Source: Commensalibacter communis (GTDB taxonomy: Bacteria; Pseudomonadota; Alphaproteobacteria; Acetobacterales; Acetobacteraceae). Taken from it: a DNA stretch of 64,000 nucleotides. Of the stretch, positions 4,434 to 16,379 are shown piece by piece. The DNA is taken from NCBI RefSeq assembly GCF_947179015.1, contig NZ_CAMXCM010000001.1, positions 359,387 through 423,386 on the forward strand, given 5' to 3'. Position numbers and translations under genes: made by a program. Numbering within the stretch: the first letter of the stretch is position 1; every line of letters begins with the position of its first letter. Below the pieces are notes generated by a model that saw nothing but the letters and a program-made list of their open reading frames with translations, was not told the DNA's origin and did not search any database.

Positions 4434-7313
4434 ATGACTGAATCCAAATCGACTGATCTGTATCGTGATACAGTATTTTTACCTTCTACTTCCTTTCCTA
4501 TGCGTGGTGGCTTACCTAAAAAAGAACCAGAAATTCTGGCTCATTGGAAGAAGATAGGGTTGGATGAAGCCATACAGAAAAAATCTGACGAGCGTCTGGC
4601 TGCAGGTCATAAAGTCTTTACCCTGCATGATGGTCCTCCTTATGCCAATGGTCATTTACATATTGGTCATGCATTAAATAAAATCATTAAAGACGTTATT
4701 AATCGCTCTCATCGCATGAATGGTGAGGTCGTGCGCTATATTCCTGGTTGGGATTGTCATGGCTTGCCGATTGAGTGGCGGATCGAAGAACAATATCGTA
4801 AAGCAGGTAAGAATAAAGATGATGTTCCTGTTTTGCAATTTCGTGCAGAATGTCGTAACTATGCCAAAGAATGGTTGACCACTCAATCTTCAGAGTTTCA
4901 ACGTTTAGGGGTTCAGGCTGAATGGGATAATCGTTATGCAACGATGGATTTCTCTTCTGAAGCAACGATCGTTGAGGAAATTGGTCGTTTCTTATTGAAC
5001 GGTAGCCTCTATCGTGGTTTGCGTCCTGTAATGTGGAGCCCAGTTGAAAAAACAGCTTTGGCAGAAGCAGAAATTGAATATCACGATCATACTTCTGTAA
5101 CGATTTTTGTTGCGTTTCCAATTGTGAAAGATTCGACTTCAAATCACGCATTAGACGGCGTTTCAGCGGTTATTTGGACAACAACACCTTGGACAATCCC
5201 TGCAAACAGAGCAATTGCTTATAATAACGACATTAATTATCAAGTCATTATTGCTCAAGCTGTCAGTGATGAATCCTATGTCATGGTTGGCTCTAAATTT
5301 CTGGTTGCGCAAGATCTGGCTGATTCTTTTTGTCAACAAGTCGGGATTACCGATCATCAAGCTTTACATACATTCTCTGGTCAAGCGCTAAAAGGCACCG
5401 TTGCGGCACATCCTTTCCGTGGGAAAGGGTTTGATTATGATGTACCATTACTTGCAGGCGAATTTGTAACAACAGAGGCTGGAACGGGATTGGTTCATTG
5501 TGCGCCTGCTCATGGTGAAGACGATTTTTATCTTTGTCGTGACCACCAAATCGGCGTTGATGAATTGGTTCAAGATGACGGTGTATATGCACCTAATGTT
5601 CCATTATTTGCTGGTATCCACGTATTTAAAGCAGCAGAACCCGTTTGTGACCAGTTAATTGAATCGTCTCAAAAAGCACAAACCGAAGGAAAAGCTTTCA
5701 CAGGATTAGTCGCCAGATCATCGATTGTTCACTCTTACCCACATTCTTGGCGTTCAAGAGCACCAGTTATTTATCGTGCGACACCGCAATGGTTTATTGC
5801 GATGGATGATGACAGAAAAATTCGTGAAAACGCATTATCTGTATTGGAAGTTGTAACTTTTGTCCCTGCACAAATTCGTAATCGCCTGACCAGCATGGTG
5901 GCATCCCGTCCAGATTGGTGTATTAGTCGCCAGCGTGCTTGGGGCGTTCCGATTGCGGTGTTTGTCAACAAAGAAACCCGTGAAGTATTACGTGATGAAA
6001 ACGTTATGCAACGCATTGTCGAAGCATTCAAAGTTGAGGGGGCAGATGCTTGGTACACATCACCAGCTTCTCGCTTCCTTGGTGATAGCTATAATGCTGA
6101 TGACTTTGAACAAGTATTTGATATTGTTGATGTTTGGTTCGAAAGTGGTTCAACCCATGCGTTTGTCCTAGGTCAAGATAAACTCAATTTTCCAGCAGAT
6201 TTATATCTTGAAGGCTCAGATCAACATCGTGGTTGGTTCCAGTCTTCTTTGTTAGAATGCGTTGGCACCAGAGGCATTGCCCCATATAAAGCAATTGTTA
6301 CGAACGGCTTTGTTATGGATGAGCAAGGGCGCAAAATGTCTAAATCTTTGGGCAATGTGGTCGCGCCACAAGATGTAAATGATTCATTGGGAGCAGATAT
6401 TCTTCGGCTTTGGGTGATGAACTCAGATACGAATGATGATTTGCGTATTGGTAAAGAAATCCTGAAACAACAAGGGGATTTATATCGCCGTTTACGCAAT
6501 ACCTTGCGTTGGTTGTTGGGGGGCTTGGATGATTTCTCTGAGGCTGAAAAAGTGCCATATGCAGAATTACCAGAGCTTGAAAAATGGGTTTTACATCGCT
6601 TGACCGAAATGAATAAAATCATTCAACAAGCAGTAACCTCTCATGAATGGGTTGGGGTTTATCCAACGTTACACCATTTCTGTACGGTCGATTTGTCTGC
6701 ATTCTATTTTGATATTCGTAAAGATGCGCTCTATTGCGATGATACAAATAATGTCCGTCGTAGAGCTGCTAGAACTGTTTTGGACATTTTGCATCGTTGT
6801 TTATGTGCTTGGTTGGCACCTGTATTATGCTTTACTGCAGAAGAAGCCTGGACAGCTCGTTTTGGTGAAGATCAAAGCATTCACCTAGAAGATTTCCCAA
6901 CCTTGCCAGCTGAATGGAATAACGAAGCCTTAGCAGAAAGATGGTTACAAGTTAGAGCTATTCGCCGTATTATTACTACTGAAATTGAAAATGCAAGAAG
7001 AGAAGGGATGATTAAATCTTCTTTACAAGCAGCTGTTGAATTGGCTTTTTCTGAAAAAGAAGTGGCTCTTTTTGGACAATATGATTGGGCAGAATTAGTG
7101 ATTGTTTCTCAGGTCGATATTCAGATCGTGCCTGGTTCAGCATCTCTTTATACGGAGGATGAAGAACAACAAGGTGAGCCGCATGCACCGCCAGTGGTCA
7201 CGGTTGCTTCTGGTGAAAAATGTGCGCGTTGTTGGAAAGTTTTGGATGAAGTGGGTGAAAATACTGAACATCCAGAATTATGTCTGCGTTGCGTAGATGT
7301 AGTCAGCCAATAA
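4434..7313 (+). CDS. ileS: Isoleucyl-tRNA synthetase
   Basis: A 959-residue class I aminoacyl-tRNA synthetase that charges tRNA-Ile and edits mischarged valine. The HIGH motif lies in GPPYANGHLHIGHA (residues 67-80), the KMSKS motif at 634-638, and the editing domain includes the TTTPWTIPANRA segment. The C-terminus keeps the zinc-binding pairs C930/C933 and C950/C953 seen in bacterial-type IleRS, so this is the ordinary bacterial enzyme rather than the mupirocin-resistant eukaryote-like form. lspA starts 21 bp after the stop, and the two are very likely co-transcribed. Confidence 0.97.
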   Translation: MTESKSTDLYRDTVFLPSTSFPMRGGLPKKEPEILAHWKKIGLDEAIQKKSDERLAAGHKVFTLHDGPPYANGHLHIGHALNKIIKDVINRSHRMNGEVVRYIPGWDCHGLPIEWRIEEQYRKAGKNKDDVPVLQFRAECRNYAKEWLTTQSSEFQRLGVQAEWDNRYATMDFSSEATIVEEIGRFLLNGSLYRGLRPVMWSPVEKTALAEAEIEYHDHTSVTIFVAFPIVKDSTSNHALDGVSAVIWTTTPWTIPANRAIAYNNDINYQVIIAQAVSDESYVMVGSKFLVAQDLADSFCQQVGITDHQALHTFSGQALKGTVAAHPFRGKGFDYDVPLLAGEFVTTEAGTGLVHCAPAHGEDDFYLCRDHQIGVDELVQDDGVYAPNVPLFAGIHVFKAAEPVCDQLIESSQKAQTEGKAFTGLVARSSIVHSYPHSWRSRAPVIYRATPQWFIAMDDDRKIRENALSVLEVVTFVPAQIRNRLTSMVASRPDWCISRQRAWGVPIAVFVNKETREVLRDENVMQRIVEAFKVEGADAWYTSPASRFLGDSYNADDFEQVFDIVDVWFESGSTHAFVLGQDKLNFPADLYLEGSDQHRGWFQSSLLECVGTRGIAPYKAIVTNGFVMDEQGRKMSKSLGNVVAPQDVNDSLGADILRLWVMNSDTNDDLRIGKEILKQQGDLYRRLRNTLRWLLGGLDDFSEAEKVPYAELPELEKWVLHRLTEMNKIIQQAVTSHEWVGVYPTLHHFCTVDLSAFYFDIRKDALYCDDTNNVRRRAARTVLDILHRCLCAWLAPVLCFTAEEAWTARFGEDQSIHLEDFPTLPAEWNNEALAERWLQVRAIRRIITTEIENARREGMIKSSLQAAVELAFSEKEVALFGQYDWAELVIVSQVDIQIVPGSASLYTEDEEQQGEPHAPPVVTVASGEKCARCWKVLDEVGENTEHPELCLRCVDVVSQ

Positions 7314-7334
7314 AGATAGAGATTGTAGAAAGTA

Positions 7335-7844
7335 ATGAATATAGTCTCGGCACATTCGGCGAAAACCAAGCATTGGCTTTTGGGTATAGTGATGTTGGTG
7401 TTGGTTCTCGTTTGCGATCAGTTAAGCAAATATTGGATTTTAAATATTTTTGACTTGCCTGAAAAAAGGTCTGTCGAGATACTTCCTTTTCTGAATTTTA
7501 CAATGGTATGGAATAAAGCGATCACATTTGGCATGTTGGGTGATGCATTAGGTCAATACGCCCCAATAATTTTTGCTGTTGTTGCTTTTTCTATTGCAGT
7601 TGGTCTGTTTGTATGGATGATAAGAGCATCTAAACGATGTGTTGTTTTAAGTTTAGGTGCAATTATTGGTGGTGCTGTCGGAAATATTATCGATCGTGTA
7701 CGTTTTGGGGCGGTTGTGGATTTTATACATCTTCATGTTAGCGGCTGGTCGTGGTATGTATTTAATATTGCCGATAGTGCAATTGTTTGTGGTGTAGGGG
7801 TATTGCTAATTGATGCTTTTTTCCGTAAGGATTCAAAACATTAG
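7335..7844 (+). CDS. lspA: Lipoprotein signal peptidase (signal peptidase II)
   Basis: A 169-residue inner-membrane aspartic protease that removes signal peptides from prolipoproteins. Four hydrophobic segments are visible. The catalytic aspartates lie in GNIIDRVRFGAVVDFIH and FNIADSAI. The N-terminal CDQLSKYW motif is typical. The usual N-x-G-x-A-F-G segment reads NKAITFG here, a mild departure, but both catalytic aspartate blocks are intact. It follows ileS and precedes a lipoprotein gene that would be one of its substrates. Confidence 0.93.
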   Translation: MNIVSAHSAKTKHWLLGIVMLVLVLVCDQLSKYWILNIFDLPEKRSVEILPFLNFTMVWNKAITFGMLGDALGQYAPIIFAVVAFSIAVGLFVWMIRASKRCVVLSLGAIIGGAVGNIIDRVRFGAVVDFIHLHVSGWSWYVFNIADSAIVCGVGVLLIDAFFRKDSKH

Positions 7845-7906
7845 TTCGTATTGTCGTCTATTGAATGTTTGTTGATTTTTATTGTAAGTTAGGGGTGAGG
7901 CAAATT

Positions 7907-8425
7907 ATGGTGCATAAGTTAAGCCTGAATTCTTTGATGCCAGTTGGCTGTCTTATGACGGTGTTTCTTCTTTCTGCATGTTCGGGAGAGGATGTTTCCC
8001 GCGCTTTTGGAATAAAACGTTCTATGCCTGATGAATATACGGTGACAACACGTTCACCATTATCTATGCCTCCATCGGAAAGTTTGTTGTTACCTGACAG
8101 CAATGGGGGACGTCCCGCAGGACAATCTATTCGTCAACAAACTTTAGAAATTTTATCCCCTGATGTGGCATTGGAAAGAGATAAAGACGTTCCAAGTCCA
8201 GGACAATCAGAGTTGGTAACACAAGCCAATCAATCTGCTGATGTTAGCCGTCAACATGAATTGGTAACGGATCAAGGTTTTGTTGATCAAATTATGTTTT
8301 GGAAAAGTGGCAAACCATCTGATCTAGCTGTTGATGGTGCTGCTGAAAATAAACGTTTACATAATAATCTAAGCCTAGGGGTCAGCCCAGATCAAGGGGC
8401 AACGCCTACAACAGATAAAAAATAA
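7907..8425 (+). CDS. DUF3035 / BamF-like outer-membrane lipoprotein
   Basis: A 172-residue predicted lipoprotein. After a signal with lipobox-like LLSAC, the mature start SGEDVSRAFGIKRSMPDEYTV and SPLSMPP match the alphaproteobacterial DUF3035 family, some members of which are described as BamF, an accessory of the outer-membrane beta-barrel assembly complex. The rest is low-complexity and likely unfolded. I chose the ATG at 7907, preceded by a strong ribosome site (AGGGGTGAGG), over the upstream ATG at 7865. It lies in the ileS-lspA-mutL run. The family match is from memory of its N-terminal pattern; the BAM role is known for the family, not shown here. Confidence 0.75.
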   Translation: MVHKLSLNSLMPVGCLMTVFLLSACSGEDVSRAFGIKRSMPDEYTVTTRSPLSMPPSESLLLPDSNGGRPAGQSIRQQTLEILSPDVALERDKDVPSPGQSELVTQANQSADVSRQHELVTDQGFVDQIMFWKSGKPSDLAVDGAAENKRLHNNLSLGVSPDQGATPTTDKK

Positions 8426-8448: not shown

Positions 8449-10326
8449 TTGGTTGAAGATAGTGATAGAGAAAATATTTCTTTTCAAAATCATAATAAAA
8501 TTCGCCAATTATCTGAACATACAATAAATCTAATTGCTGCGGGTGAAGTCATCGAACGCCCAGCAGCAGTTGTTAAAGAACTTGTTGAAAATGCACTTGA
8601 TTCTGGTGCCGATCGTATTGTTATACACCTTGTTAATGGGGGTATAGATCGTATTCAAGTGATTGATAATGGATGTGGAATGTCATCCGATGATTTATCA
8701 CTTGCGATAGAACGACATTGCACATCTAAATTAAAAGAAGAAGATCTAGTCCATATTCAAACACTAGGATTTCGTGGTGAGGCATTGCCTTCGATCGGTG
8801 CTGCGGCACGTTTAAAGATTATTTCCCGTATAGAAAATGCATCCCAAGCATGGCAGATCAGTGTTGAGGGTGGAAAAACCAGGGGTATCTCACCAGCTGC
8901 TGGGCAAAAGGGAACCCAAGTTGTTGTTGAGGATATATTCTTTGCAACACCAGTGCGGCGCAAATTTTTAAAAACGCCTCGTGTAGAATTTTCTCGTTGT
9001 GAAGCGATGATACAGCGCCTTGCTGTAGCACGTCCAGAAGTTTCATTCTGTTTGATTCGAGACGACAGAACAATTTTTGATCTGCCGATTCAAACTCAAC
9101 AAGAACGAATTCTCGCAATTTTAAACGATATTCGTAAAGAAGAACTAATTGCGATTGATTTTAAGCGTGAGGAATTACGTCTAACGGGGTTTATTGGTGC
9201 TTCTTCTGTAAATCGATCTACGACTAATGGTCAGATTATGGTGGTCAACGACCGCCCTGTGATTGATCCAGTAATGCAAACAGCTATTCGCGTTGGGTAT
9301 AGAGATGTTTTAGAAAAAGGACGTCATCCCGTTGTTGCTTTGTTTTTAGCGGTGCCGTTAGATCAGTTAGACGTTAATGTTCATCCTGCTAAAACGGAAT
9401 TAAGATTTTCTGATGAAGCCAATGTGCGTGCATTATTAATTGGCAGTATTCAAAAAAGCCTGTCGATTGGTGCAGGAAATATAGGTATTCATCCTGAGTC
9501 GTTACATGTCGTCCCCAGGCAATATCAATCAAAACCGACAAATATACAATACCCATCTTCTATACCGCGATCCTTACCTACTCAATCGGATTCTCCTCTT
9601 GTGGAGCAAGCGCCTAAACAACAACTGGATGTTTTGTTTAATAGAGGAGCTTTGTCGGCCAGAGATGTTGGAAATAGTTTAGTAACCTTTTCCAATCCTG
9701 TTTTTGGAAAGGAATTTGATAACACATCATTTCCTTTAGGAACAGCTGTTGCACAGATATTTAAAACTTACATTTTGGCGGTCACAGGTCAAGATGAATT
9801 GGTGATTGTTGATCAACATGCTGCACATGAACGATTAACGCATGAATTATTAAAAAAACAATATTTAGAACAAGGAATTCGTTCTCAGCCTTTATTATTA
9901 CCTGAAGTAATTGAGTTATCAGATTCTCACATACAATGTTTGTTGGATTTTAAAGATAGTTTAGAAGGGTTAGGGATCGAGCTCGAATCTTTTGGTGGTA
10001 AATCTATATTGGTTAGGTCATTACCCCAACTACTGGGTGCAATTTCTGCAAAGCCTTTGTTGATTGATTTGGCAGAAGAATTAGAAGCTGACGATCAAGC
10101 AAACCCCGAAGAGACGGAAACTCTCCACCATCGCCTAGATGCCATTCTGGCAAGGATGGCTTGTCATCACAGTGTCCGTGCGGGACGTTCGTTAAAAATA
10201 GATGAAATGAATGCGTTGTTACGACAAATGGAGGAAACCCCTAGGGCAGGAACCTGTTCTCATGGTCGTCCTACTTGGTTAAAATGGTCGAAAAAAGACA
10301 TAGAAAAGCTCTTTCATCGTTCATAA
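8449..10326 (+). CDS. mutL: DNA mismatch repair protein MutL (endonuclease type)
   Basis: A 625-residue GHKL ATPase that couples MutS mismatch recognition to strand removal. The ATPase core shows IERPAAVVKELVENALDSG (catalytic E44), DNGCGM (73-78) and GFRGEALPSI. A variable linker is followed by a C-terminal dimerization domain with the endonuclease signature DQHA-x2-E-x4-E starting at D455, plus ACHHSVRAG and CSHGRPT. This is the nicking MutL found in bacteria without MutH. The start is a TTG at 8449 with GAGGT 8 bp upstream; there is no in-frame ATG before the conserved core. Confidence 0.95.
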   Translation: MVEDSDRENISFQNHNKIRQLSEHTINLIAAGEVIERPAAVVKELVENALDSGADRIVIHLVNGGIDRIQVIDNGCGMSSDDLSLAIERHCTSKLKEEDLVHIQTLGFRGEALPSIGAAARLKIISRIENASQAWQISVEGGKTRGISPAAGQKGTQVVVEDIFFATPVRRKFLKTPRVEFSRCEAMIQRLAVARPEVSFCLIRDDRTIFDLPIQTQQERILAILNDIRKEELIAIDFKREELRLTGFIGASSVNRSTTNGQIMVVNDRPVIDPVMQTAIRVGYRDVLEKGRHPVVALFLAVPLDQLDVNVHPAKTELRFSDEANVRALLIGSIQKSLSIGAGNIGIHPESLHVVPRQYQSKPTNIQYPSSIPRSLPTQSDSPLVEQAPKQQLDVLFNRGALSARDVGNSLVTFSNPVFGKEFDNTSFPLGTAVAQIFKTYILAVTGQDELVIVDQHAAHERLTHELLKKQYLEQGIRSQPLLLPEVIELSDSHIQCLLDFKDSLEGLGIELESFGGKSILVRSLPQLLGAISAKPLLIDLAEELEADDQANPEETETLHHRLDAILARMACHHSVRAGRSLKIDEMNALLRQMEETPRAGTCSHGRPTWLKWSKKDIEKLFHRS

Positions 10327-10444
10327 TTCAGTCTGTTGATCAGGTTGAATTCCAAAAAAATAAAATCATTTCTGGGCAATTCTGTTATAAAGATGTATAA
10401 ACTTTTTATTATCGTATTTGAATCAATAAATTAATGAGAATACA

Positions 10445-11986
10445 GTGCACACAGTATTACTTACGCTCGTAACGTATTTGCCCTTACTTGGGGCTTTAAT
10501 TATCTTCCTGATGCGTGGATCTTCTGAAGAGGTTGCACGTACCGCAAGATGGATCGCTTTATGGACCAGTGTTGTTGTCTTTGGTTTATCTATTGTAATG
10601 TGGAGCAAATTTGATCCAACATTGCCTGGATATCAATTTGATTACCAAAGTACATGGTTAGAAGGCTATGGCGTATCTTATCATGTTGGGGTTGATGGAA
10701 TCAGTCTATTCTTTATTATTCTGTCTACCTTGCTGACATTGGTTGCTATTTTAGCCGCTTGGCAAATGATTATTGATCGTATTCGTGATTATATGGTCGC
10801 TATATTATTGCTTGAAACGACATTAGTTGGTTTGTTCTCTTCACTAGACATGGTGGTTTTTTACTGTTTCTACGAAGCAACTCTGATCCCAAGCAGCATG
10901 CTCATTGGGATTTGGGGCGGACCAAAGCGTATTTTCGCATCATTAACATTCTTTTTATTCACATTTACTGGATCATTATTCATGATGATCGGTATTTTGT
11001 GGATATGGGTTCATACAGGCACCACCGATATTCCAGTGCTAATGCATCAATCGTTTTCTGGCACTGTTCAAGGCTGGTTATTGTTGGGCTTTGTCTTGGC
11101 GTTTGGTGTTAAATTGCCGCTATTCCCATTACATTCTTGGTTGCCAAACGCATATTCTGAAGCTCCTGCACCCACAACATTATTAGTCTCAGGCGTGATG
11201 TCAAAGGCGGGTGCTTATGGTCTATTACGGTTTTGTATTTTGATGTTACCAGAAGCTTCGCATCGTTATTCCATGTTAATTATGATCTTGGGTGTGTGTG
11301 CTGTGATTTATGGTGCTGTGATTGCACTGGCACAGACGGATATTAAGCGTATGGTAGCTTATTCGTCTTTTTCACACATGGGATTGATTGCAATTGGTTT
11401 ATTTTCGTTCACTGCTGAAGGTATTAACGGTGCTTTGATGCAAGTTATTTCTCATGGTGTAACGATTTCAGCATTATTCTTATGTATTGCAGCCGTGACC
11501 TATCGTGCAGAAACACGTTCTATTACCGAATTTGGTGGGGTGGCTAGTCAAATGCCTAAACTTGCCTTACTAGGGATGATCTTTATCATGGCAAATGTTG
11601 GTTTACCTGGTACGGGTGCATTTGTTGGTGAATTACTTGTTATGGTAGGGGCTTTACAAGTTTCTTTCTGGATTGCTTTGTTGGGTGGATCCACCATGAT
11701 TTTAGGGGCAATCTATACCTTAGTTTTATATCGAAAAGTTATCTTTGGTGCCGTAGTAAAGCCAGCTGTTAGCCACATGCGTGATTTGAGTGTCAGAGAA
11801 TTAACTATTCTTGTACCACTAGCATTGATTACTTTGTGGATGGGGATTTATCCAAATAGTTTCCTATCCGTTTTTGATCCAGCAGTTGTTTCCTTTACCA
11901 GTTCAGGTAGAGTTGCCGAGTTAACATCTCAAGTTCATACTGTTGCAGTGAATAGTATTGATACTCATTCAGCTGTTGTTCGCTAA
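10445..11986 (+). CDS. nuoM: NADH-quinone oxidoreductase subunit M (NuoM), stand-alone
   Basis: A 513-residue polytopic membrane protein of the proton-pumping antiporter-like subunits of complex I. YHVGVDGISLFFIILSTLLT near the N-terminus is typical of NuoM, as is the FGVKLPLFPLHSWLPNAYSEAP segment with the functional lysine, and LVSGVMSKAGAYGLLR. About 14 membrane helices are evident, normal for NuoM. The start is a GTG at 10445. Unusually, no other nuo gene flanks it: mutL is upstream with a 118-bp gap and a strong terminator separates it from fumC, so it is its own transcription unit. A role in a different proton or ion complex that recruits NuoM-like subunits is a possible alternative. 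Confidence 0.88.
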   Translation: MHTVLLTLVTYLPLLGALIIFLMRGSSEEVARTARWIALWTSVVVFGLSIVMWSKFDPTLPGYQFDYQSTWLEGYGVSYHVGVDGISLFFIILSTLLTLVAILAAWQMIIDRIRDYMVAILLLETTLVGLFSSLDMVVFYCFYEATLIPSSMLIGIWGGPKRIFASLTFFLFTFTGSLFMMIGILWIWVHTGTTDIPVLMHQSFSGTVQGWLLLGFVLAFGVKLPLFPLHSWLPNAYSEAPAPTTLLVSGVMSKAGAYGLLRFCILMLPEASHRYSMLIMILGVCAVIYGAVIALAQTDIKRMVAYSSFSHMGLIAIGLFSFTAEGINGALMQVISHGVTISALFLCIAAVTYRAETRSITEFGGVASQMPKLALLGMIFIMANVGLPGTGAFVGELLVMVGALQVSFWIALLGGSTMILGAIYTLVLYRKVIFGAVVKPAVSHMRDLSVRELTILVPLALITLWMGIYPNSFLSVFDPAVVSFTSSGRVAELTSQVHTVAVNSIDTHSAVVR

Positions 11987-12018: not shown

Positions 12019-12059
12019 AAAACCCATTGCAGCCCTTGGCTTTGCAGTGGGTTTTTTTT
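12019..12059 (+). terminator. Rho-independent terminator of nuoM
   Basis: A 12-13 bp stem (AAACCCATTGCA pairing with TGCAGTGGGTTT, one G-T pair) around a short loop, followed by a run of eight Ts. Strong intrinsic terminator between nuoM and fumC. Confidence 0.9.
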
Positions 12060-12095
12060 ATGATGTATTAATCTATAAATAAAAGGATTTTTTCA

Positions 12096-13547
12096 ATGGC
12101 TCAGGATAAAGCGTCTTATAACTATGTGGAAATCGGTATCCAAGCAACAGGAAATCGTCAAGAAAGCGATTCTATGGGTGCTGTTGAAGTACCTGCTGAT
12201 CGATACTGGGGCGCACAAACTCAGCGGTCTTTACACCATTTTAATATTGGTGGTGATATCATGCCACGTGAGGTCTATCACGCTTATGGTGTGGTTAAAG
12301 GAGCCGCAGCAGAAGTCAATGCCGCAGCAGGACGTTTGGATAAAACAATAGCTGAAGCGATTGTGCAAGCTTCAAAAGAAGCTGCTAATGGCAAATTGGA
12401 TGATCATTTCCCATTATGTGTATGGCAAACAGGATCTGGTACACAAACCAATATGAATGCTAATGAAGTTATTGCTAATCGTGCCATTCAATTACTGGGT
12501 GGTGTAATTGGATCGAAGAAACCCGTTCATCCAAACGATCATGTGAATATGGGACAATCTTCCAATGATAGTTTCCCAACAGTAATGCATGTGGCTATGG
12601 CTTTAGAATTAGAGAGAAAATTCTTTCCAGAATTAAACAATCTTGTCAAAGCGATTGAAGCTAAGGCAGAGCAATGGTTTGAAGTTGTCAAAGTAGGTCG
12701 TACTCATTTACAAGATGCTGTGCCATTAACCGTGGGTCAAGAATGGTCTGGTTGGGCCTATCAATTAAAAGATGCATTACATCGTGTTAAAGAAGCAGAA
12801 AGAGGTGTTTTTGAATTAGCTGCTGGTGGAACTGCTGTTGGAACTGGGATGAATGCTCCCAAAGGTTTCTCTAAAGCAATTGCGGCAAAAATCTCTGAAA
12901 TTACTGGGCAGTCTTTCATTACAGCACCTAATAAATTTGCTGCTTTAGGTGGCGTGGACGGAATGGTTGCAGTGATGGCAGCCTTGCGCGGTGTTGCAAC
13001 AGTATTAATGAAAATTGCCAACGATACACGTTGGTTGGCTTCTGGTCCACGCTGCGGTTTGGGTGAATTACATTTGCCAGAAAATGAGCCAGGTTCTTCA
13101 ATTATGCCAGGTAAAGTTAATCCTACACAATGTGAAGCCATGATTATGGTATGTATACAAATTATGGGGCTGGATGCTGCTGTCGCACTTGCAGGATCTC
13201 AAGGTAATTTACAGCTTAATGTTACACGTCCTTTGGTGATTATGAATACATTGCATGCAAGTCGTCTATTAACTGATGCTGCCAAAGCTTTCCGTGAATT
13301 CTCAGTTGAGGGTACTACATTAAACGAAAAGCGTATTCAGCATTATATTGATAATTCATTGATGTTAGTAACAGCATTAGCTCCAGTTGTCGGATATGAT
13401 GGAGCAGCAAAAATTGCACATCTAGGGGATGTAGAAGGATTAAGTCTGAAAGAAGCTGCTTTGAAAACAGGATTGTTAGACGAAAAACAATTCGACGAAC
13501 ACATTAAACCACGCCTGATGGCTGGTGAAGGTGTTGAGGGCGCTTAA
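12096..13547 (+). CDS. fumC: Class II fumarate hydratase
   Basis: A 483-residue iron-independent fumarase that interconverts fumarate and malate in the TCA cycle. It shows the superfamily signature GSSIMPGKVN at residues 333-342, SGTQTNMNANEV from about residue 114, and HPNDHVNMGQSSND. The N-terminus carries roughly 20 residues more than the E. coli enzyme ahead of the DSMGAVEVPAD segment. The ATG at 12096 has AAGGA upstream. It is flanked by terminators on both sides, so it is a single-gene unit. Confidence 0.96.
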   Translation: MAQDKASYNYVEIGIQATGNRQESDSMGAVEVPADRYWGAQTQRSLHHFNIGGDIMPREVYHAYGVVKGAAAEVNAAAGRLDKTIAEAIVQASKEAANGKLDDHFPLCVWQTGSGTQTNMNANEVIANRAIQLLGGVIGSKKPVHPNDHVNMGQSSNDSFPTVMHVAMALELERKFFPELNNLVKAIEAKAEQWFEVVKVGRTHLQDAVPLTVGQEWSGWAYQLKDALHRVKEAERGVFELAAGGTAVGTGMNAPKGFSKAIAAKISEITGQSFITAPNKFAALGGVDGMVAVMAALRGVATVLMKIANDTRWLASGPRCGLGELHLPENEPGSSIMPGKVNPTQCEAMIMVCIQIMGLDAAVALAGSQGNLQLNVTRPLVIMNTLHASRLLTDAAKAFREFSVEGTTLNEKRIQHYIDNSLMLVTALAPVVGYDGAAKIAHLGDVEGLSLKEAALKTGLLDEKQFDEHIKPRLMAGEGVEGA

Positions 13548-14372: not shown

Positions 14373-16379
14373 CTAAATATCTAACGTTTCTATAGAGCCT
14401 GCATGTTCCTGAATGAATTGAAAACGCATTTCAGATTTTTTACCCATTAGATTAGAAACGCGTTCTTCAGTAAAGTTAGCCTCTTCTTGAGGAATGGTGA
14501 CTTTTAATAAAGTTCTATGTTTAGGATCCATTGTTGTTTCCTTAAGATCTTTCGGAGGCATTTCCCCAAGACCTTTAAAGCGAGAAACTTCGACCTTTCC
14601 ACGTCCTTGACTAAGTTTACTTTGTTTTTTCTCTTTATCTTTGTCATCCATTGCGTAAACACTTTTTTCCCCTTGAGTTAATCGATAAAGGGGAGGTTGA
14701 GCTAAATAAAGTTTTCCTTGAAGAATAAGCTCAGGCAGTTCTTGGTAGAAAAAAGTCATCAGCAGAGATGCAATGTGAGCGCCGTCAACATCAGCATCCG
14801 TCATAATAATAATACGACCATAGCGCAATTTATCTATATTGAAATAAGACCCAATACCACATCCTAGCGCTTCGATTAAATCTTTCAATTCTTGATTATT
14901 ATTTAATTTTTGATTAGAAGCACTGGCAACATTCAGAATTTTACCACGTAAAGGAAGGATTGCTTGGGTTTCACGATTACGAGCTTGCTTTGCAGATCCT
15001 CCAGCAGAATCACCCTCAACAATAAATATCTCAGTAATTGCAGCATTTTCTTTAGTACAGTCTGTTAATTTTCCAGGTAAACGTAATCGTTTTGTAGCGC
15101 TTTTTCTGGGCGTATCTTTTGCTTCTTTACGACGTAGGCGTTCTTCGGCTTTTTCTAGAATGGTTGTAAACAGGATATCTGCTTGGCTGGGATCAGCAGC
15201 TAACCAATGATCTAAGCGATCACGTAATGCCGTTTCAACAAGCTTGACCGTTTCCTTGGAACTTAATTTTTCTTTTGTTTGCCCTTGGAACTCAGGGTCG
15301 CGAATAAAAACGGATAATTTAGCTGCAAGTGATCCCAATACATCATCACTTGTAATGATAGAGGCTCTTTTGTTAGAACGCTGATCACCCCAAGCTCTGA
15401 TACCTTTGAGCAAAGCATTTCTAAAACCTTGCTCGTGCGTTCCACCCAATGGAGTGGGAATCGTATTACAAAAAGAACTGAGTGAAGAATCGCCTTTGGT
15501 TAACCATGCGATAGACCATTCAATACGACCTGTGTCTTTGCCTTCTGTGTCTGTTGGGAGGGAAACATCGCCCGACCAAATAGGGCAAATAAGAGTATTG
15601 GTATCAATTTCTTCTTTTAAACTATCTTCTAGTCCATTTGGAAAATGTAATGTAGCTTGAGCTGGAATGTCGCTATTTTTTAAAAGTGTTTCATCACATG
15701 ACCAGCGAATAGTAACACCTTTAAACAAAAATGCTTTTGCACGGCATAGTTTAAAAAGTTGTTTAGGTGAAAAATGAATGTCACCAAAAATTTCTGTGTC
15801 TGGGATAAAGCTAATTTGGGTGCCACGTCGATTCTGAATTGCGCCTACTTCAATGAGTGGGGTAATTGGGGTACCACGTCCATAGGTTTGTTTCCAGAGG
15901 ATTTTATCTCTGGCAATTTCGACTTCCATCCAAGATGACAGCGCATTAACTACAGAAGAGCCGACACCATGTAACCCACCAGCAGTATTATATACTTTAT
16001 TGGAGAATTTTCCACCAGCATGCAAGGTTGTAAGAATGACTTCTAACGCTGACTTATCTTTAAATTTAGGATGAGGATCAACAGGGATACCTCGACCGTT
16101 ATCGCGAATGGTTAGCTTATTGTCCGTATCTAATCTTACGTGGATCAGATTAGCAAAACCACCAACAGCTTCATCCATAGAATTATCAAGAATTTCGGCA
16201 GCCATATGGTGGTATGCCGCATCATCGGTACCACCGATATACATTCCCGGTCGCCTGCGAACAGGTTCAAGACCTTCTAAAACTTCAATATCATTAGCAT
16301 TATAACTGTTTGTCGAGGATATGGTCGCACCTGATTGCTGAGGTATCTTAGAATTATCAGAAGAAAATAAATCGCTCAT
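14373..16379 (-). CDS. parE: DNA topoisomerase IV subunit B
   Basis: A 668-residue GHKL-type ATPase subunit that powers decatenation of daughter chromosomes with ParC. It shows the ATP-binding RRRPGMYIGG and AAEILDNSMDEAVGG segments, DNGRGIPVD, and GGLHGVGSSVVNALS. The Toprim domain starts with EGDSAGGSA (E455 onward), followed by PLRGKILNV and TDADVDGAHI. The length and the RFKGLGEM segment fit ParE better than the longer GyrB found in most proteobacteria. Start ATG at 16379. parC is not in the window. Confidence 0.92.
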   Translation of the reverse strand: MSDLFSSDNSKIPQQSGATISSTNSYNANDIEVLEGLEPVRRRPGMYIGGTDDAAYHHMAAEILDNSMDEAVGGFANLIHVRLDTDNKLTIRDNGRGIPVDPHPKFKDKSALEVILTTLHAGGKFSNKVYNTAGGLHGVGSSVVNALSSWMEVEIARDKILWKQTYGRGTPITPLIEVGAIQNRRGTQISFIPDTEIFGDIHFSPKQLFKLCRAKAFLFKGVTIRWSCDETLLKNSDIPAQATLHFPNGLEDSLKEEIDTNTLICPIWSGDVSLPTDTEGKDTGRIEWSIAWLTKGDSSLSSFCNTIPTPLGGTHEQGFRNALLKGIRAWGDQRSNKRASIITSDDVLGSLAAKLSVFIRDPEFQGQTKEKLSSKETVKLVETALRDRLDHWLAADPSQADILFTTILEKAEERLRRKEAKDTPRKSATKRLRLPGKLTDCTKENAAITEIFIVEGDSAGGSAKQARNRETQAILPLRGKILNVASASNQKLNNNQELKDLIEALGCGIGSYFNIDKLRYGRIIIMTDADVDGAHIASLLMTFFYQELPELILQGKLYLAQPPLYRLTQGEKSVYAMDDKDKEKKQSKLSQGRGKVEVSRFKGLGEMPPKDLKETTMDPKHRTLLKVTIPQEEANFTEERVSNLMGKKSEMRFQFIQEHAGSIETLDI

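Follow-up and report, generated by a model that had tools for sequence, protein, structure and literature searches.

Why does a gene for the complex I subunit NuoM stand by itself between mutL and fumC in Commensalibacter communis, an acetic acid bacterium of the insect gut, what does its product work in, and how did it come to be there? The window analysed here, a stretch of 64,000 nucleotides, spans positions 359387-423386 of contig C1 in an assembly (genome G000) of 66 contigs that is rated 99.76% complete. The initial annotation had described a full-length NuoM gene with a GTG start, a strong terminator of its own and no nuo neighbour, and this description held up at each point (Table 1). 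The reading frame is intact in the list of open reading frames, and in a profile search its product is identified as NuoM by TIGR01972 (NDH_I_M; 546 bits against a cut-off of 263.8), with one Proton_antipo_M domain. For NF004499, an equivalog and the top-scoring NuoM model, the score of 564.3 bits falls short of the cut-off of 585, an early sign that the product is divergent. The protein is 92% identical to NuoM of Commensalibacter intestini and C. papalotli, and its closest solved relative is 8qby, 'NADH dehydrogenase subunit M', to which it aligns over residues 3-487 (E 2.9e-122).

Table 1. Features at and around the lone nuoM, in window positions.
Feature	Coordinates	Strand	Remark
ileS, lspA, DUF3035 gene	4434..8425	+	mutL neighbours; many operon-type relatives also have them near mutL, but no nuoM there
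mutL	8449..10326	+	passes curated model; usual upstream neighbour of displaced nuoM
mutL-nuoM intergenic stretch	10327..10444	+	site of own promoter unless read-through from mutL
nuoM, displaced	10445..11986	+	only NuoM found in genome; 513 aa, GTG start
Intrinsic terminator 3' of nuoM	12020..12065	+	stem-loop with T run
fumC	12096..13547	+	passes curated model; nuoM's downstream neighbour
parE	14373..16379	-	passes curated model

No nuo gene adjoins the window nuoM, and ileS, lspA, mutL, fumC and parE each score above the curated cut-off for their names. By eye, GAGA immediately 5' of the GTG is a possible Shine-Dalgarno sequence. A pattern scan listed no promoter-like site in the gap between mutL and nuoM, and its count for the whole region was near chance (9 against 6.2 expected). 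The terminator has a folding energy of -19.9 kcal/mol (z -4.3), and none of 200 shuffles was equally good; it is missing from the list of the simple pattern scan, probably owing to a bulge in the stem.

The rest of complex I is encoded on the same contig. The genes nuoA-B-C-D-E-F-G-H-I-J-K-L-N lie intact and in order at C1:720560-733583, and nuoM lies ~349 kb before nuoA. nuoL and nuoN sit together at C1:730-733 kb, with only 24 nt from the nuoL stop to the nuoN start, where nuoM would be expected. Twelve of the 13 operon products (B to L, and N) exceed the NCBIfam cut-off for the named subunit; NuoA has no NCBIfam match at 1e-30 and passed Pfam PF00507. The search for nuoA-N and the count of NuoL, NuoM and NuoN copies that the initial annotation had proposed thus gave a 13-gene operon without nuoM and one copy of each protein, and a complete operon with its own nuoM, which it had allowed for, was not found. 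Its suggestion that complex I has been broken up or lost survives in its first half and only weakly, as a single gene is sited away from the other 13, which are present in order; complex I itself has not been lost. Genome-wide, PF00361 (Proton_antipo_M) is found in three proteins only, NuoL, NuoN and the window NuoM, which makes the lone gene very likely the source of the complex I NuoM. We conclude, with a probability of about 0.92, that it encodes the NuoM (ND4-type antiporter) of an otherwise normal 14-subunit complex I and that the gene has moved: in an ancestor of the acetic acid bacteria the working nuoM came to sit behind mutL, and its operon slot between nuoL and nuoN disappeared. NuoM would be made outside the operon, insert in the membrane and take its usual place between NuoL and NuoN, and thus presumably assembles into complex I. 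Gene order in the nuo operon is reportedly not essential for assembly of the E. coli complex (Oppermann et al. 2022).

Consistent with this conclusion, the residues expected of a proton pump are in place. E144, K223, H230, K254, H337 and E396 are invariant in all 21 displaced NuoM (those encoded away from the operon, as here) and in all 39 operon NuoM compared. We take them to correspond to E. coli E144, K234, H241, K265, H348 and E407; the match to the E. coli numbers runs at a constant offset after the first residue. Presumably these six key residues form the proton path, as the TM5 Glu, the TM7 Lys and His, the TM8 Lys, the TM11 His and the TM12 Glu. Between G000 and a second genome, G002, dN/dS is 0.048 for nuoM, 0.043 for nuoL and 0.051 for nuoN, and a value of ~0.05 indicates that nuoM is under purifying selection.

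The arrangement is not peculiar to this genome. Loci were picked by NuoM, NuoN and NuoL searches over 150 Acetobacteraceae, and 39 operon-type loci were fetched for comparison, selected because nuoM sat between nuoL and nuoN. The operon was also fetched from 18 displaced genomes, and in every one it reads nuoABCDEFGHIJKL-N, without nuoM, the nuoM query matching nuoN only. Likewise, in all eight other genomes of the same genus the starts of nuoL and nuoN are ~1.9 kb apart and no third member of the family lies in between; NuoM is located elsewhere. The displaced genomes thus have the same subunits and the same relative order of nuoL and nuoN as the canonical operon of other Acetobacteraceae, but differ from the 39 operon-type genomes, picked for this trait, in having no nuoM between the two. 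In a search of the family (397 genomes), at least 62 genomes fell, by genus code, in the displaced type (11 codes: g1, g2, g10, g14, g55, g66, g80, g84, g95, g97 and g110), a count taken from the search list. We refer to this group as acetic acid bacteria, a label inferred from Commensalibacter and a paper on Acetobacter.

The new site is also largely shared. nuoM follows mutL on the same strand, at a distance of up to 200 nt, in 16 of 21 displaced genomes. In the remaining five, the distance is 2.0 kb (G102) or 7.2 kb (G087), the contig starts inside nuoM (G003) or shows no mutL within 4.5 kb upstream of nuoM (G162), or mutL and nuoM are on different contigs (G148). Downstream, parE is found within the fetched locus in 18 of the 21; fumC follows nuoM in the six same-genus genomes and in none of the 15 others. 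Where mutL regions were fetched from operon-type genomes (18, plus G131, discussed below), nuoM was not beside mutL.

Five of 18 displaced genomes (G073, G091, G104, G117 and G153) encode a further NuoM, with 33-35% identity to that of the window, next to a second NuoL, the pair being of a distant type, so the displaced NuoM is not the sole NuoM there; perhaps these cells hold two kinds of complex I. Separately, nine near-complete small genomes of the family (1.9-2.6 Mb, 99-100%) from genus codes g57, g78, g85, g90, g94 and g125 gave no match at E 1e-60 to either NuoM or NuoL, and complex I of this kind appears to be missing from them.

We compared the three antiporter subunits across 57 shared genomes (18 displaced, 39 operon). 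For NuoM, mean identity is 0.748 within the operon-type genomes, 0.648 within the displaced and 0.507 between the two. The corresponding values are 0.688, 0.666 and 0.590 for NuoL, and 0.647, 0.643 and 0.560 for NuoN. Thus, NuoM is the best conserved of the three among operon genomes, yet the most changed across the split. A similar picture came from switched positions, at which one residue is at least 90% conserved in operon-type genomes and another at least 90% conserved in displaced ones: there are 18 among the 276 operon-conserved positions of NuoM, 4 among 286 of NuoL and 4 among 184 of NuoN. In a wider set, which contrasts 22 displaced-type rows (including G247, typed by sequence only) with 79 further NuoM rows, 21 positions are switched; of the 79, 39 are operon-type and 40 come from other alphaproteobacteria, and two are identical. 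These positions, conserved in the 79 rows, also set the displaced clade apart from 8qby subunit M. Several of the 21 flank key residues, 8 lying within 4 residues of one of the six (p 0.016); windows of 2, 3 and 5 residues gave p values of 0.045, 0.051 and 0.011, all uncorrected, which is only suggestive of an enrichment near these residues. Apart from one C-terminal column, the displaced clade has no indel that sets it off from other NuoM.

How the gene came to lie beside mutL is a matter of ancestry. The NuoM tree joins the 21 displaced copies in a single clade (98/79), to which the window NuoM belongs, away from operon NuoM. The initial annotation had considered a recent duplicate; the window NuoM, placed in the displaced clade and the sole NuoM found in its genome, does not fit that description. 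A quick tree that also took in other alphaproteobacteria puts the displaced clade amid the NuoM of Acetobacteraceae. Its neighbours there are two long rows, G099 and G031, which makes the exact position uncertain. Import from outside the family was rejected on this branching. A search of the class with the NuoM of G117 listed rows outside the family that are 51-55% identical.

One genus, g124, holds both types of nuoM; the genomes are G131, G187 and G229, each a single contig of ~2.7 Mb. The two copies of G131 are at L111:8128-9660 and L112:13724-15286. The operon copy groups with operon copies, and the second is sister to the displaced clade (100/100, on a stem of 0.78), at a place where, as the tool warned, long branches meet. 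Sequence identity agrees with the tree, as the second copy is 61% identical to the NuoM of G117 and 50% to the operon copy of its own genome, and it has 14 of the 21 new residues in common with the displaced clade. A recent duplication within G131 was rejected (p-AU 1.1e-8). The second copy is not beside mutL; its neighbours encode a TPR protein, a tRNA-synthetase-like protein and a ctaG-like gene product, and apart from the ctaG-like gene, ~2.4 kb off, they have no functional link to respiration.

The two copies in g124 suggest that a diverged duplicate replaced the original nuoM. We put forward tentatively, at somewhat less than even odds, that a replacement antiporter subunit runs the complex I of acetic acid bacteria: a NuoM paralogue, duplicated before g124 split off, would have ousted the operon copy, and residues beside the proton-path Glu, Lys and His (F143Y, S219A, A221G, W227F, V229L, H237Y, L253S and M255A) would have changed and then become fixed. 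On this view the displaced gene would have arisen from a gene duplication, the operon copy being lost afterwards. The changes beside the proton path may perhaps have served pumping in acid, high-proton-motive-force conditions. The duplication step depends on one genus, g124, which trees of other genes neither place beside the displaced clade nor keep away from it. Two histories are left: duplication, divergence and loss of the operon copy, or a jump with later transfer into g124.

In the second history, a single nuoM would have jumped by transposition and then diverged faster, with no duplicate stage, and g124 would have acquired its extra copy laterally from an early acetic acid bacterium. 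Trees of NuoL, of NuoN, of IleS plus MutL and of the four together do not put G131 beside the displaced clade, and the second copy of G131 lies elsewhere than at mutL; both speak for this history. On the other hand, constraining G131 with the displaced genomes was not rejected (p-AU 0.238), and the divergence of NuoM across the split far exceeds that of NuoL and NuoN, which an older duplicate explains without a change of rate. We regard a single jump as a serious possibility, a little short of an even chance.

The other readings fare much worse. The initial annotation had offered a role for the lone NuoM in some other ion-pumping assembly, for which Mrp, hydrogenase-type and DAB-like systems are the candidates. 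Such systems have the antiporter fold in common, and the gene does stand apart from the nuo operon. However, the models for Mrp antiporter subunit D (NF009306, 173.1 against a cut-off of 542; TIGR00944, 129.5 against 692) and for hydrogenase-4 and hydrogenase membrane subunits (NF005086, 142.9 against 667; NF006418, 132.7 against 794) scored far under their cut-offs. A DabB-type partnership is not supported at this locus either, as there is no DabA-like gene beside nuoM, its neighbours being mutL and fumC. Moreover, the only other family members in the genome are NuoL and NuoN, so that no further PF00361 protein was found as a partner, and complex I would be left without NuoM; a role in such an assembly is therefore very improbable. 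A remnant of a decaying complex I is more improbable still: loss does occur, as some genera of the family have no match to NuoM or NuoL at E 1e-60, but the 13 other subunits are all present in order, and this and a dN/dS of ~0.05 for nuoM, nuoL and nuoN refute decay for this genome. An assembly artefact, which the initial annotation had also considered and for which no evidence emerged, can practically be dismissed, given the same arrangement in eight same-genus assemblies, in other genera and in 18 of 18 displaced operons.

The bare separation of nuoM from its operon is not new. Acetobacter pasteurianus SKU1108 is listed with a nuo operon of 13 loci and nuoM (APT_00690) elsewhere (PMC5158111), an arrangement like that described here; the passage lists the loci and does not remark on ancestry, neighbours or divergence. 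In the parts of the texts covered, nuoM apart from the operon was found in PMC5158111 only, and not in PMC10715153, PMC10149009, PMC12361115, PMC5419562 or PMC9368920. The main text of PMC10715153, on respiratory traits across the family, does not contain 'NuoM', and the covered text of a Commensalibacter comparison has no 'nuo' (PMC10149009). Neither a clade-wide relocation nor a diverged paralogue was found described in the literature searched, and the subunit-specific divergence of NuoM looks new. The explanation is for the most part ordinary, and the proposed replacement is of moderate interest. The case shows a core complex I membrane subunit encoded apart from its operon across 11 genus codes; among the three antiporter subunits, NuoM alone changed sharply. 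If a diverged duplicate did replace the original, the displaced bacteria, together with a genus that still holds both copies, would be a natural experiment on which antiporter residues can be exchanged without breaking proton pumping.

Two other Acetobacteraceae carry an extra nuoM besides the operon copy, at L113:7066-8646 in G133 and at L152:7054-8571 in G019. Nothing among the neighbours scanned links them to respiration. In the NuoM tree they pair with each other (100/100), and in both Asn replaces the TM8 Lys, which is invariant in all other rows.
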